Shown: positions 23,470-31,463, numbered from the stretch's first letter. The stretch: DNA of 33,869 nucleotides from an uncultured Thermoleophilia bacterium (GCA_947258365.1 CAMYIK010000007.1:1-33869), one strand, 5' to 3'. Made by a program: numbers and translations. The notes: generated by a model not told the origin, from the letters alone.

Positions 23470-23638
23470 CGGCGGGCGCCGCCAGGCGACCAGGCTCCAC
23501 GTGTCCCGCTACGAAGTTTCGCGGCATTAAGCGATCTTCTACCTCGACTTTCGTCTACTTCAGGCGGCTAGCGAGACGATGCCCATACGGCTCGTCCAGC
23601 CGATCAGCGGAGGTAGTCGAGGGGTCCCCAGAACGCGA

Positions 23639-23664
23639 ACAGCCGGCCCCAAAGGACCGGCTGT
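23639..23664 (-). terminator. Terminator-like hairpin after the cupredoxin gene
   Basis: ACAGCCGG and CCGGCTGT form an 8-bp perfect stem around CCCCAAAGGA, about 27 bases after the stop of the cupredoxin gene. A clear U-run does not follow. Its position at the end of the four-gene unit supports a transcription-end or RNA-stabilising role. Confidence 0.5.
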
Positions 23665-23690
23665 CGGTAAGCCTGTATGTCACTGCGGCG

Positions 23691-24161
23691 CTAGTTGGCG
23701 GGACCGAGCATCCGATTCATCTCTGCTTCCCAGGCTGCGTACACCGCGTCGTACTGATCGACGACGGTGATGTAGCCGACCATGCCAAGCGCTTCATGTC
23801 CTGGCAGGTTGCACCAGATCTTGTTCCGCCCAGGCTTGAGCGACGTGACGAGATCCCCGCGCGCGCCCGGTCCGAGATCGACCTTCTGCATCTGCCCTTG
23901 CGCGTCGAGCACGGCAAAATCGTGATCGTCTTCGCCGCGGTTGAAGATGCTGAAGTTGACGACTCCGGTCGGGTCGGCCGCCACGGTGATCCGTGACGGA
24001 ATGACCGACCATTCGTCCTCGTCGATCTGCAAGCCGGTCGGCACCCTCTCGGGCGCTGGATCGAACAACCGATGGACCTTCGCCGCGGCGAGGCTCGCTG
24101 ATGCGAGCATCGCCACGACGAGAGAACCGGCGACGAGGGCGTAGAGGCCCCGACGCCTCAT
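23691..24161 (-). CDS. Exported type-1 copper cupredoxin
   Basis: This is a small blue-copper-like protein of 156 residues. A signal peptide or anchor is visible (RRRGLYALVAGSLVVAMLASASLAAAK), and the mature part is a beta-sandwich. Type-1 copper ligands can be assigned by pattern: His 80 in GEDDHDF, then Cys 117, His 122 and Met 127 in the loop WCNLPGHEALGM. The loop spacing matches plastocyanin/azurin-like electron carriers. The ORF track starts at 24230, but the ATG at 24161 overlaps the DUF1501 stop by 4 nt (ATGA) and places the basic n-region correctly. No ribosome site of its own is seen, so re-initiation after DUF1501 is likely. It is the last gene of the GH26 - DUF1800 - DUF1501 unit. 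It probably carries electrons or copper outside the membrane; its partner is unknown. Confidence 0.85.
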   Translation of the reverse strand: MRRRGLYALVAGSLVVAMLASASLAAAKVHRLFDPAPERVPTGLQIDEDEWSVIPSRITVAADPTGVVNFSIFNRGEDDHDFAVLDAQGQMQKVDLGPGARGDLVTSLKPGRNKIWCNLPGHEALGMVGYITVVDQYDAVYAAWEAEMNRMLGPAN

Positions 24162-25666
24162 CCGATGATCGGTCGAGCGGTTGCTGCCGGTCGGCCCGGC
24201 AGGACCGCGTTCGGGTCGCCACCGAGCCATTCACTGACGACCTGGGCGTAGATCTGGCGGGGGTCGTTGGCCGCCCGGAGATCGTCACCCCGACGGGCGC
24301 GTTGCGCCGGAGCGATGCCGGGCCAGTCACCTGCAAGGCCACCGTTGACGCGGGATCCCATCAGCATCATCGGACCGGCCGTGCCGTGATCGGTGCCGTC
24401 GTCGTTTTGCTCGACGCGGCGACCGAACTCGGTGAAGACCATCGTCACGACCTTCGCCTCGACCCCACGCGCCGTGAGGTCAGCCTGGAACGCCGCGAGA
24501 GCGTGCGACAGAGTCGTCAGCTGAGGGTCCATGCTGTTGAGAATGTTCGCGTGGTTGTCGAATGAGCCCCAGTCGATGGTCACGATGCGCGTTCCGAGAC
24601 CCGCCCCAATGAGCGTCGCAGCAAGCTGCAAACGCGTCGAGAGGGAGCTCTGCGGATACCCCGCCCCCGCCGGCGCGTTCTCCAGCGCCTTCAGCGCCCG
24701 AGCGACGCGGACCGTGCGGTTGTAGGCCTCACGAGCGTGATTGAGCTGCTCGTTCTTCTTGGCAGCCTGCACGGACGACACCGCACCCATGACTTCGGTC
24801 GCGTCGGTCTCGCCGGAGTTCGAGACGTCGAACTCGACTCCATTGAGGTTGCTGACCGCACTGACCGGCGCCCGCGTGGTCCGAATCTGCTTGGACAGGT
24901 TCGAGCTGAGCGAAACGGCCTGGAGCGGGTTGGTCTTCGACCCGTAGAGGTCGAGCCAACGTCCGAGCCAACCAGTCTCGGTGTTGTCATCGGTCGTGCC
25001 GCGGAACCAGTAGTCGCGGCTGTCGAAGTGCGACCGGCTCGAGTTCTGGAAGAAGTTGACCGCCGGCCAGAGCGCCATGTCGGCGCCTGCGCCGGAGCCG
25101 TTGCCCCAAATGGTGTCAAAGCCGACCGTTTGCTCGTTGTTGCCGACACCGGAGACTCCGACGTTGGCAAAGCCGAACCGACCGCCGGTGCCCGGCATGG
25201 CGGTGGTGCCTACCTGGTTGGCGGCACTGGCTCCGAGAGCGCGACCCACGTTCGGGCGCGCCGTCGAGTAGTGCCCGAAGTCCGGATTCGCGATTGGCAC
25301 GAAGTTCTGCATGCCGTCGAATCCACCATTGAGGTAGAGACAAACCAGCACCGAACCGGGCTCGGCGGCCTCGGCCTTCGCGGCCTCAAACGCCTCTGTC
25401 CAGTCGATCTTGCTCGCCCCGTAGACGGCGGCCATTCCGAGCGCGCCGTTCTTGAGGAAGCTCTTGCGGTCATGCCGCCTGACTCGCGGAACACCATCGG
25501 CAAAACCGTTGACGGCCTCGATCGGAATCGGCATGTGGTCGACCGGCTCGATATCGAGCGCGGCACTGTCGCTGCGGGCGCAGTCGGCGCAGATCACGGC
25601 CTCGGAAAACCCGGGGTCGAGCGGCTTCTGTTCGCCCTCGTGCGTTTGGTGGTCGTTGCGATCCAT
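24158..25666 (-). CDS. DUF1501 family protein (alkaline-phosphatase/sulfatase-like fold), probably exported
   Basis: DUF1501 proteins belong to the alkaline phosphatase-like superfamily and usually sit beside DUF1800. Their biochemical role is not established. Family features here are VLVCLYLNGGFDGMQNFVP near residue 105, IVTIDWGSFDNHANI, and VFTEFGRRVEQNDDGTDHG with the metal-binding-type Asp and His. The first 60 residues are an acidic extension containing CADC. After it comes VRRHDRKSFLKNGALGMAA, which resembles a twin-arginine signal in which the second Arg is Lys and the hydrophobic part is short. Other members often have a Tat signal. The 502-residue protein starts at ATG 25666, one base after the DUF1800 stop, with AGGTGA upstream, and overlaps the cupredoxin start by 4 nt. 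Confidence 0.9.
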   Translation of the reverse strand: MDRNDHQTHEGEQKPLDPGFSEAVICADCARSDSAALDIEPVDHMPIPIEAVNGFADGVPRVRRHDRKSFLKNGALGMAAVYGASKIDWTEAFEAAKAEAAEPGSVLVCLYLNGGFDGMQNFVPIANPDFGHYSTARPNVGRALGASAANQVGTTAMPGTGGRFGFANVGVSGVGNNEQTVGFDTIWGNGSGAGADMALWPAVNFFQNSSRSHFDSRDYWFRGTTDDNTETGWLGRWLDLYGSKTNPLQAVSLSSNLSKQIRTTRAPVSAVSNLNGVEFDVSNSGETDATEVMGAVSSVQAAKKNEQLNHAREAYNRTVRVARALKALENAPAGAGYPQSSLSTRLQLAATLIGAGLGTRIVTIDWGSFDNHANILNSMDPQLTTLSHALAAFQADLTARGVEAKVVTMVFTEFGRRVEQNDDGTDHGTAGPMMLMGSRVNGGLAGDWPGIAPAQRARRGDDLRAANDPRQIYAQVVSEWLGGDPNAVLPGRPAATARPIIG

Positions 25667-25667
25667 G

Positions 25668-27086
25668 TCACATCACCTGTCCGTCAGGGCCACCGACCAT
25701 GAAAGTGCGCAGCACTCTCTGGCGAGCGATCCGGTCGTCCTCGTTGTCAGCGGCCGCATTCTTTGAGAAGAACAACAGCGCGCTGCGGGTCTTCGGCGCG
25801 AGCCACGGCTTCCCGACAGCGTTCCACGCGTTGGTGAACGCCTGGGTGCTGCTCTCGCTGCTGCCCGGGTCTTTGATCTCGTAGTTGTCGTCATTGATCA
25901 CCGCGTTGGCGAAGTCGAAACGCGACAACGCGGTGTTCGTGTTCAACCACGAGAGACCGCCTTCCCAACCGGCAACGGTCGGGGGGAAGTAGGGCTCTTG
26001 ACCCTGCTCGTCGAGTGCCCGACTGAGCTGGCTGCTCGTGATACCGCGGCGGAGGGCCCGCATCATGCCGACGGAGTAGACGATCGGCGGCTTGATCATG
26101 TCCGGCTCGATGTTGGCGAACATCGCGGGGTCGGTGAGGATCTTCTTCAGGACCGGGCGGATTTGGGTGCCGCCTCGCTTGTAGGTCCGAATCAGATCGG
26201 TGACCGTCGCCTTGTCCGGCGGCACGGTGATGAACTCGTTCCAGAGCTTGGTGACCAAGAAGAACGGGTGGTTCCAGTGGGCCAGCACGGAGTCCACCGC
26301 ATCCCGGTGCTTGAAGGCGGCCGTCTTGCCGAAGACCTTCTTGTCCGTGTCGTCCCAGCGGTCCTCATTGAAGATCGCGCGGGCCTGATCCGGATTGTCG
26401 TCCTCGATCTCCCAGCCGGTGAAGGCGCGGGAGAGCTCCTTGATGTCGGTCTCCGTGTAGGTGACGTTGCCACGCCGGTCGAGGATTCCGACCGCGAACA
26501 ACTCACAGATCTCGCGACCGTAGTTCTCGTTCGGGTTGTTCTTGGTGCTCCGCTCGCCGTTGAGGAAGCGCAGCATCGCCGGCCCCTCGCCCACCTCGTA
26601 GAGCATGTCCCGGAACTTGGCGGACGGGTTTGCCGCGATGTCGCTGTACTTGCGGAAGAGGTCGATCTGCTGCTGCATCAGCTGCGGCGGACTGACGTTT
26701 TCACGCTGAGTCGCGAAGTGGTTGTGCCAGAAGAACGCCATCCGCTCCGCGAACGGGTTCTTCAACCGGATCATCCGGTCGCACCACTCGAGCACAAGAT
26801 CAGTGTCGTCCTCAGTGGGGTCGAGCGGCGTCCGCGGATCGGCCTCGCGGTCCTGCTTGTACGGAGCCGCGCCCTGAAGACCACCCTGCGGTGTCGTCAG
26901 AAGCGCTTCCACGAAGTCCTGGACGCTCCGGCCGATCCACCTCTTGCGATCGGCGTCGGTCGGGCCGAAACCCGTCCGCCACATCATGCGATCGACCATC
27001 ACCTTGTTCATCCGCTTCTGTGGCCCTGAAGCCAGCGGACGACGCAGGCGTCGGCGTCGCGCCCCTGTAAGCACGCGTGTGCTCAT
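25668..27086 (-). CDS. DUF1800 family protein
   Basis: This 472-residue protein matches DUF1800, a helical family of unknown function almost always encoded next to DUF1501. Recognisable parts are the N-terminal RMMWRTGFGPT, the conserved ERMAFFWHNHFAT motif with two His, NYGREICELFAVGI, FTGWEIEDDNP, and the C-terminal FPPTVAGWEGGLSWLNT. The N-terminus is Arg-rich (RRRRLRRPLASGP) with no clear signal peptide, so export, if any, might occur with DUF1501. ATG 27086 overlaps the stop of the GH26-like gene by 4 nt and has a near-perfect AAGGAGG five bases upstream. Highly expressed translation of this gene within the unit is therefore plausible. Confidence 0.9.
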   Translation of the reverse strand: MSTRVLTGARRRRLRRPLASGPQKRMNKVMVDRMMWRTGFGPTDADRKRWIGRSVQDFVEALLTTPQGGLQGAAPYKQDREADPRTPLDPTEDDTDLVLEWCDRMIRLKNPFAERMAFFWHNHFATQRENVSPPQLMQQQIDLFRKYSDIAANPSAKFRDMLYEVGEGPAMLRFLNGERSTKNNPNENYGREICELFAVGILDRRGNVTYTETDIKELSRAFTGWEIEDDNPDQARAIFNEDRWDDTDKKVFGKTAAFKHRDAVDSVLAHWNHPFFLVTKLWNEFITVPPDKATVTDLIRTYKRGGTQIRPVLKKILTDPAMFANIEPDMIKPPIVYSVGMMRALRRGITSSQLSRALDEQGQEPYFPPTVAGWEGGLSWLNTNTALSRFDFANAVINDDNYEIKDPGSSESSTQAFTNAWNAVGKPWLAPKTRSALLFFSKNAAADNEDDRIARQRVLRTFMVGGPDGQVM

Positions 27087-28060
27087 TTGGCCCTCCTTCT
27101 CAGCATGGCCCGGAAGGTGCGGGTTGTCCGCTTGTTCTGCCGGACTCGGAAGTCACCATTCCGCTCCCTGACGTCGTACCAAACGAAGCCTTGGAGCAGG
27201 GGGAGTTTCGACTGGAGCTTCCCGAGTCGGGAGATCCAGAGCGCTTTGTTGCCGCCCTTGTTCGTCGAGGCCGTTTCTGCGATCCAGAACGGCTTCGCGG
27301 CAAGGGAGGTGATGTCGCGGTAGGCGACCCTGAACAGGTCGTACGGCTCAGCCCACGACAGTGACCTGACGGTCCCGAAGTTGTAGCCGCTGACCCCGAC
27401 GAGGTCGACGAACTTCCTACCCGGGAAGTAGTTGGCAATCGTGTTGGTCGGCCGCTCGGGGAAGCTGCGGACGTACGGGGCCCACATGATCCTGACGCGC
27501 TTGCCACCGCTCTTCTTGAGCCGGGCGCGCACCTTCTTGAAGGCTGCCTTGTACTTCTTCGCGTTGTTCTTGTTGACCGTGCCCGACCAGGGGTACCAGG
27601 GGGTGTTCATCTCCGGCATCGGCCGGATGATCGGAGCGATCTTCAGCTTCTTGGTCTCTTTGCCGAGCCTCGCGAGACGCTTGTTCTCGGAGCCCTTCGC
27701 GATCTTGGCCAGGCGGAACCGCGGCTGAACGCGCTTCGCCTTACCGTTGTCGGGCATCCAGGTGATCATCAACTGGACCTTGTTGCGGTTGGCCCATTTG
27801 ATCAGCGCGGGGTTGAGTGACTTACCCGTACTCAGGTAGACGCTCACCACGCGGACCTTCTTGCCTACGGCCTTCCGCAGGCCCGGGGTCTTCTGAACAG
27901 GGTTGTCTTGATAGACGCCCACTTTGATGCGCTTCGCCTCTGCTCTGTCGGCGTCGGCGGCCTGAGCGAATGTCAGGGCTACCGCGGCGCCGAGAGCTAT
28001 TGCAATCGCGCGGCGGGGGGCGTGGACCCGTCGCGGTCGGTGGAGCTCGGTCGTCGTCAT
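27083..28060 (-). CDS. Exported GH26-like glycoside hydrolase
   Basis: This protein has 325 residues from ATG 28060. The N-terminus is a signal peptide (RRAIAIALGAAVALTFAQAADA). The TIM-barrel part resembles GH26 beta-mannanase/endoglucanase-type enzymes. The acid/base Glu is about residue 150 in RPMPEMNTPWYPWSG, the nucleophile Glu is about 262 in KPFWIAETAS, and MWAPYVRS and DLVGVSGYNFG fall in their expected places. The ORF track's earlier start (28186) would precede the signal peptide with unlikely sequence. The mature protein is unusually rich in Lys and Arg (AKKYKAAFKKVRARLKKSGGKR), so it may bind acidic polymer. It opens the unit with DUF1800, DUF1501 and cupredoxin, overlapping DUF1800 by 4 nt. 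The substrate cannot be read from sequence. Confidence 0.82.
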   Translation of the reverse strand: MTTTELHRPRRVHAPRRAIAIALGAAVALTFAQAADADRAEAKRIKVGVYQDNPVQKTPGLRKAVGKKVRVVSVYLSTGKSLNPALIKWANRNKVQLMITWMPDNGKAKRVQPRFRLAKIAKGSENKRLARLGKETKKLKIAPIIRPMPEMNTPWYPWSGTVNKNNAKKYKAAFKKVRARLKKSGGKRVRIMWAPYVRSFPERPTNTIANYFPGRKFVDLVGVSGYNFGTVRSLSWAEPYDLFRVAYRDITSLAAKPFWIAETASTNKGGNKALWISRLGKLQSKLPLLQGFVWYDVRERNGDFRVRQNKRTTRTFRAMLRRRAK

Positions 28061-28344
28061 GGGCGGGACGCTAGAGGCGGTTCGCGGCGATCCCGAGCGT
28101 GGAAAGGAACGCTCAACCCTTTGCCCACAAAGCTCACACAAACCCCGATCTCTCTGGGAGGGACCCCGAAAGCAGTGGGATATCACCCTAATGTGCGACT
28201 TTCGGAGCGCCAGGAGGTGGCCGATGTACCTACTTGCATCGGTCCCGCTTACCCGTCTCCTAAGCCCCTCTCATGAAGTCGTTACCGAAGGGCTGCCGAA
28301 AGCGGCAGCGTAGGATTCGCCGGACGCACCTCGGAAAGGCCCGA
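28061..28344. other. Divergent intergenic region between the GH26 unit and the mutase operon
   Basis: About 280 bases should hold the promoters of two divergent operons. I found no convincing ORF, tRNA or known riboswitch, in particular no clear cobalamin B12-box. GTGGGATATCACC (28175-28187) is an imperfect palindrome around GATATC that could be an operator. The plus-strand ORF of the mutase extends back to ATG 28273, but its first 24 residues are Lys/Arg-rich and lack a ribosome site. Confidence 0.4.
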
Positions 28345-30491
<2,147 letters not shown>

Positions 30492-30495
<4 letters not shown>

Positions 30496-31463
30496 CCGAG
30501 CTCGCGGAGGGGGTCATCAGAGGTGACCGCCGAGCCTTGGCTCAGGCGATCACGCTGGTGGAGTCGACCCACGACGATGATCGCGAACGCGCTCTGGAGT
30601 TGATTCAGGAAGTCATGCCACGCTCCGGCCGGTCGCTTCGGGTCGGCATGTCCGGCGCCCCCGGCGCCGGAAAGTCCACCATGATCGAAGCGCTCGGCGT
30701 GCGTCTGACGGATGCGCGGAAGCGGGTCGGTGTTCTGACGGTCGACCCCACGAGTGCGCGCAGCGGCGGTTCACTCCTCGGCGACAAGACCCGCATGGAA
30801 GAGCTGTCTCGCCGCGACGGAGCGTTCATCCGTCCGTCCCCGTCAGGAGGCACGCTCGGGGGCGTGGCTCGCCGGACGCGCGAGGCGATGCTGCTCGTCG
30901 AGGCATGGGGCGCGGACGTCGTTCTGATCGAGACCGTCGGCGTCGGCCAGTCCGAGATCGCCGTGGCCGGGATGGTCGACCAGTTCGTTCTTCTGATCAA
31001 TCCGGGCGGCGGGGACGAGCTGCAAGGGCTCAAACGCGGCGTGATGGAACTCGCCGACGTCATCGCGGTGAACAAAGCCGATGGAGAGCTCGCGCCGGCT
31101 GCGGCACGATCACGATCCGAATACGCCGCGGCGGCGCACCTGATGAGACCGCGCCACGACGGGCTCGAGACGCCGGTGCTGGCGACGTCGGCTCTCGAAG
31201 GCGCCGGTCTCGACGAGTTGTGGTCCACTCTCGAGCAGCGCACCGACAGTCTGGCCAACGATGGCCGCTTGGCACAGCTTCGCAGCGCACAGGCACACGA
31301 GTGGCTCTGGACCGAGGTTCGCGAGGGACTCCTTGCCGAAATTGATCGCACGCCAGCAGCGGCCGCGATCGCGAAGCAAACAGAAGCTGACGTCGCCAAC
31401 GGCTCCGCTTTCCCGCCTCTGGTTGCACGTGAGATCGTCGAGGCCCTACTCGACCGGAGGTAG
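30492..31463 (+). CDS. meaB: Methylmalonyl-CoA mutase-associated GTPase MeaB
   Basis: MeaB is a G3E-family GTPase that loads and protects the adenosylcobalamin of the mutase. It has 323 residues: P-loop GAPGAGKST at 55-63, the [21 protein letters not shown] segment, the Walker B-like [10 protein letters not shown], and the nucleotide-base motif [16 protein letters not shown] and the [21 protein letters not shown] stretch are characteristic. The GTG start at 30492 overlaps the mutase stop by 4 nt, which implies coupled translation and a matched complex. It is followed after two bases by an unknown gene whose ribosome site, GGAGG, lies in the meaB end. Confidence 0.96.

Follow-up and report, generated by a model that had tools for sequence, protein, structure and literature searches.

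We describe a cupredoxin-coupled version of the already known DUF1800-DUF1501 gene pair. The literature that we searched holds no description of a cupredoxin link to this pair. The core arrangement of DUF1800, DUF1501 and cupredoxin is typical of Thermoleophilia, a class of soil and sediment bacteria. DUF1800 and DUF1501 co-occur across many phyla without a known function, and the class-wide coupling of a cupredoxin is a testable hint, suggesting that the pair, at least here, carries out redox or copper chemistry outside the cytoplasm. A form of the operon that also contains a GH26-like glycoside hydrolase gene suggests a beta-glycan as substrate. Our preferred reading, which we hold tentatively and at slightly less than even probability, is that a Tat-exported DUF1800-DUF1501 complex would be served by a dedicated cupredoxin carrier, with GH26 added in one clade in which the system would act on beta-glycan.

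Organization of the operon

The window, a stretch of 33,869 nucleotides from an uncultured Thermoleophilia bacterium, carries the operon on its minus strand (28060-23691) in the 5' to 3' order GH26-like, DUF1800, DUF1501, cupredoxin; all coordinates below refer to this strand unless stated otherwise. The GH26-like glycoside hydrolase gene (27083..28060; 325 aa; Pfam GH26 E=2e-7; Sec signal peptide; E150 and E262) shares an ATGA stop/start overlap (27083..27086) with the DUF1800 gene (25668..27086; 472 aa; Pfam 1.8e-87), whose product lacks a signal peptide. A one-base gap (25667..25667) separates this gene from the adjacent DUF1501 gene (24158..25666; 502 aa; Pfam 3e-27; Tat-type N-terminus), and a second ATGA overlap (24158..24161) leads into the type-1 copper cupredoxin gene (23691..24161; 156 aa; Sec signal peptide). 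Both members of the same-strand DUF1800-DUF1501 pair score above their Pfam cut-offs (PF08811, 294.7 bits; PF07394, 96.2 bits). These junctions, read from the sequence and confirmed by a direct ORF check, bear out the compact four-gene unit that an earlier sequence-only reading of this DNA had described. The signal peptides that it had assigned to two of the proteins are seen in the sequences of the GH26-like protein and the cupredoxin, and the hairpin that it had placed after the last stop codon is present, with a 12-bp stem (23638..23665). A 66-nt segment at this site folds with an MFE of -31.1 kcal/mol (z=-2.9). The hairpin has no T-run and is thus not a canonical intrinsic terminator; that assignment at 23665-23638 was ruled out, with no terminator pattern found at the site.

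Short junctions recur among homologous loci. The GH26 and DUF1800 genes overlap by 4 nt in 9 of 10 cases, as measured from the start nearest the upstream stop, a choice that favours small gaps. The gap between DUF1800 and DUF1501 is at most 15 nt at 103 of 109 loci, and DUF1501 and the cupredoxin gene overlap shortly (-4, -1 or -8) in 63 of 74 cases. The GH26, DUF1800, DUF1501 and cupredoxin genes form a real conserved operon and are translationally coupled, and one transcript probably carries all four. Divergent from the operon, a methylmalonyl-CoA mutase gene is followed by MeaB (window 28273-31463). A PHROGs search returned no matches.

Linkage of the cupredoxin to the pair

PF08811 occurs in 90 of the 299 genomes of class Thermoleophilia. 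A coupled cupredoxin was found at 88 of 113 DUF1800 loci of the class, a figure that counts loci and not independent events, since the set includes a handful of additions from an order-level search and one near-identical pair of records (L055 and L186). The arrangement is DUF1800-DUF1501-cupredoxin at 66 loci, cupredoxin-DUF1800-DUF1501 at 13, with a further one truncated by the end of a contig, and a complete four-gene unit at 8; there are also 22 pairs without a cupredoxin and 3 broken or partial loci. Miltoncostaea oceani, a cultured relative, has the form in which the cupredoxin gene comes first. About 8 of the 25 loci that lack a coupled cupredoxin are contig ends or tandem copies, and about 16 are complete Thermoleophilia loci. 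Outside the class, a coupled cupredoxin was found at none of 42 DUF1800 loci, a modest sample that comprised 26 from other Actinomycetota classes and 16 plasmid loci (Pseudomonadota, Bacteroidota, Deinococcota and Acidobacteriota), the latter sampled non-randomly. At one locus outside the class, L197, a cupredoxin lies 3.9 kb from DUF1800-DUF1501 and is not coupled to it. In other phyla, as at the roughly 16 complete loci of the class, the pair evidently functions with no cupredoxin coupled to it, so it does not depend on this partner everywhere.

Within the class, the cupredoxin gene stands either after DUF1501 or before DUF1800, which argues that conservation acts on the association rather than on the position. 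A search of the flanks in the class revealed no further gene family recurring beside the core, the neighbors being mostly variable housekeeping genes. A pathway acting on extracellular polysaccharide with the help of electron transfer, as had been proposed from the sequence alone, is plausible, but a recurrent glycan-related neighbor of the core was not found in the class.

In a phylogenetic tree, coupled cupredoxins cluster in a clade of their own, to which 18 of 20 unlinked cupredoxins from the same bacterial family do not belong. One of the remaining two, in G005, lies at the start of a contig and may itself be linked, and three coupled cupredoxins (L146, L168 and L173) group with the unlinked set. 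The cupredoxin and DUF1501 trees correlate (r=0.73; 0 of 500 permutations), a match that would be expected for genes inherited together and to which species descent alone would contribute as well.

A predicted type-1 copper centre

The cupredoxin of the window has a full type-1 ligand set in cupredoxin order (H80, C117, H122 and M127). Among 86 homologues, the His, Cys and His ligands are conserved in 100% and the Met in 99%, and from this ligand set a blue, redox-active copper centre is predicted. The protein has no Pfam match at 1e-3, its best approach being a weak one to Copper-bind (15.7 bits against a cut-off of 21.2; E=0.02), and its orthologue in L040 and a form-B homologue in L044 pass Pfam Cupredoxin_1. 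Weak NCBIfam matches to CopI and EfeO were also obtained. The window cupredoxin resembles CopI-type cupredoxins and the cupredoxin domain of EfeO in weak profile similarity and in being an exported single-domain or N-terminal cupredoxin, but it scores far below the family cut-offs; a CopI identity was rejected at 24-25 bits against an NCBIfam equivalog cut-off of 200-280. EfeO works together with the Tat-exported peroxidase EfeB. Unlike Efe and copper-resistance systems, the operon described here is without EfeU, EfeB or copper-resistance genes.

Two observations were made at individual loci. A CopD-family (copper resistance protein D) gene adjoins the cupredoxin gene on the opposite strand at L039:8238-8735, and a clustered homologue of it lies at L038:7662-8189. 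A DUF1501-cupredoxin fusion in L035, suggested by a long open frame, was ruled out, as the two lie in different frames.

We propose that the cupredoxin, exported separately by Sec, would act at the cell surface as the dedicated type-1 copper electron carrier of DUF1800-DUF1501. It could alternatively be a CopI-like copper donor or buffer that loads copper into, or protects, a copper-dependent DUF1800 or DUF1501 protein and is not an electron carrier, a role in keeping with the weak similarity to CopI, the CopD-family neighbor in L039 and the conserved His, Glu and Asp residues of DUF1800, which could bind metal. We judge the donor role unlikely, as the intact H-C-H-M site, essentially invariant in the 86 sequences, is the signature of electron transfer and the CopI scores fall far under the model cut-off.

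Export and conserved residues of DUF1501 and DUF1800

The Tat-like motif noted earlier is present in DUF1501 as RKSFL (residues 67-71; 25454..25468), but with R-K instead of R-R at residues 67-68. The R-R pair occurs in 94% of DUF1501 homologues and in the window's congener, and the Tat motif is kept across phyla. No hydrophobic N-terminal segment was found in any of 110 DUF1800 homologues of the class, so DUF1800 may hitchhike on the export of DUF1501; beyond the class, some homologues do begin with a signal-like or Tat-like segment (e.g. L190, L191, L197 and L217), and hitchhiking is for this reason proposed for the class only. DUF1501 would accordingly be exported folded via Tat, probably with metal bound, and DUF1800 would leave the cell in complex with it. 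In Vibrio maritimus, DUF1800-DUF1501 is immediately preceded by a tatA gene in opposite orientation (L223:4311-4526), which fits Tat export. Ahead of the Tat motif, an N-terminal extension of the window's DUF1501 (25600-25480 region) carries a C-x-D-C motif (CADCARSDSA). This motif was found in 20 of 106 DUF1501 matches, including GH26-linked copies in the order, at loci that include L033-L040, L055, L185 and L186; a related C-x-[DE] motif is present in many other DUF1501 proteins.

D117, S212, H213, D370, H372, D426 and H427 are invariant among 32 DUF1501 sequences from several phyla. In order and type they appear to resemble the residues that serve the alkaline phosphatase superfamily as metal ligands and nucleophile, a superfamily in whose clan DUF1501 is presumably placed by Pfam, and they have the look of a two-metal hydrolase and not of a redox enzyme. 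DUF1501 showed no significant match to sulfatases in a profile comparison, PDB profile searches with DUF1501 and DUF1800 identified no relative by sequence, and no cofactor domain was recognised in either protein. AlphaFold2 models, generated for the proteins singly from three-sequence alignments, were unusable (pLDDT of 40.5 for DUF1800 and 31.0 for DUF1501).

In Dickeya, Pectobacterium and Agrobacterium vitis, the pair has been reported to share operons with genes for bacterial chitin synthase, and its DUF1501 member bears a Tat motif there (PMC5122149). The two systems are alike in having both families side by side, a Tat or Tat-like motif on DUF1501 and a polysaccharide-related gene in the operon. 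They differ in that the operons described there have a chitin synthase and a sugar epimerase, whereas those described here have a coupled type-1 cupredoxin, joined by GH26 in one clade.

The invariant residues bring in a further reading, in which DUF1501 is a Tat-exported, alkaline-phosphatase-type two-metal hydrolase or transferase that edits a surface polymer with DUF1800, and the cupredoxin is merely co-regulated with the pair, for example in copper or oxidative-stress tolerance. The order and type of D117, S212, D370-x-H372 and D426-H427-G agree with such an enzyme, as do the shared operons with chitin synthase in enterobacteria and the rule that, outside the class, pairs lack a cupredoxin. 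The non-significant sulfatase comparison and the lack of a PDB relative argue against it. As to mere co-regulation, no partner other than the cupredoxin recurs in the class, and it occurs on either side of the pair, which favours a direct link. Weighing both sides, we regard the hydrolase reading as rather doubtful and retain that of an exported complex with its own copper carrier.

Relation to gene clusters with electron-carrier domains

DUF1501 may be one of the families in the PSCyt gene clusters of Verrucomicrobia. These clusters encode planctomycete-type cytochrome c and have been proposed to act on carbohydrate (PMC5615132). As in the operon described here, electron-carrier domains are paired there with families of unknown function, together with carbohydrate-binding modules; the carrier there is haem c in place of type-1 copper, and no DUF1800 is described (PMC5615132). 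Among upregulated genes of Emiliania huxleyi, DUF1800 (2/10) and plastocyanin/azurin (2/9) domains are co-enriched (PMC7563939), which might reflect DUF1800-cupredoxin two-domain (fusion) proteins in a haptophyte.

A broader and more speculative possibility, to which we assign a low probability, is that the pair is in general a Tat-exported complex with metallo-oxidoreductase activity on polymers at the surface or outside the cell, with a blue-copper partner in Thermoleophilia and unlinked carriers in other phyla. If true, the operon would provide the first functional handle on two families that are spread over many phyla.

The GH26-like enzyme and the four-gene unit

The Pfam GH26 match (31.1 bits against a cut-off of 20.2) covers the central part of the protein. 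The closest PDB relative is the lichenase CtLic26A (endoglucanase H; PDB 2bvd and others), found at 2.6e-19, or at 1.2e-29 with a family profile. Both catalytic glutamates, E150 (acid/base) and E262 (nucleophile), are invariant in nine sequences and align with the CtLic26A motifs. The window protein differs from CtLic26A in having Pro for the His before the acid/base and Thr for the Gly after Asn. This His (R-P-x-H-E), typical of GH26 and not strictly defining, is Pro in all nine sequences, so GH26 activity or specificity may differ. That the substrate is of a beta-glucan type is a guess.

The GH26-DUF1800-DUF1501-cupredoxin unit was found in 10 genomes of 7 genera and 2 families, including two (G012 and G015) in which the unit is split over contigs and we infer part of the linkage. 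Nine of these genomes, from 6 genera, are among the 42 genomes of the order, and the tenth case, G180, belongs to another family of class Thermoleophilia. The outer flanks vary, with methylmalonyl-CoA mutase in the window's genome (G000), G007 and G012, a Sir2 gene in G009, DsrE in G021 and a clustered homologue of it in G020, and beta-lactamase and SDR genes in G014. Compact genomes do yield overlapping genes, and the four could in principle adjoin each other by chance. No support for this was found. The unit recurs in 7 genera with different flanks, and the cupredoxin is linked at 88/113 class loci against 0/42 outside; the neighborhood survey refutes chance adjacency, which we consider extremely improbable. 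The earlier claim that the unit is more than such an adjacency is upheld by the comparison that had been named for refuting it: relatives with this form of DUF1800/DUF1501 have retained both the GH26-like gene and the cupredoxin gene.

GH26 has been added in a single clade, which is Miltoncostaeaceae-like. The proposal that GH26 and the cupredoxin are both partners of the pair thus holds for the class-wide cupredoxin and falls short for GH26 as an equal partner, which is clade-specific and present at 10 of 113 class loci. Unlinked GH26-like paralogues (approximately 28-34% identity) occur in G018, G019, G020, G021, G011 and G012 of the same bacterial family. At three related loci without GH26, the head gene encodes a glycine-rich exported protein of 1067-1257 aa with no Pfam match (L055:2691-6464, L185:1305-4508 and L186:583-4356).

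The GH26-like gene may be a passenger on the operon promoter, with a core that is unrelated to polysaccharide. Its restriction to 10/113 loci, the unlinked paralogues in the same family and the unrelated glycine-rich protein at the head position in other members of the clade fit this explanation, but all nine close orthologues of the order (>44% identity) adjoin DUF1800, with the 4-bp overlap kept and the outer flanks differing. A passenger is possible, if on the improbable side. We prefer the reading in which a secreted GH26 beta-glycanase, added at the operon head in the Miltoncostaeaceae-like clade, would supply or trim glycan, and in which the complex of that clade probably acts on, or next to, beta-glycan at the cell surface.

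Additional copies of the pair were also observed. A further DUF1800-DUF1501 pair is present in the genome of the window (L046; G000:C79); it is of the form that elsewhere carries an upstream cupredoxin, but none was found beside it. In G012, a tandem duplicate of DUF1800-DUF1501 lies behind the GH26 gene (L037).
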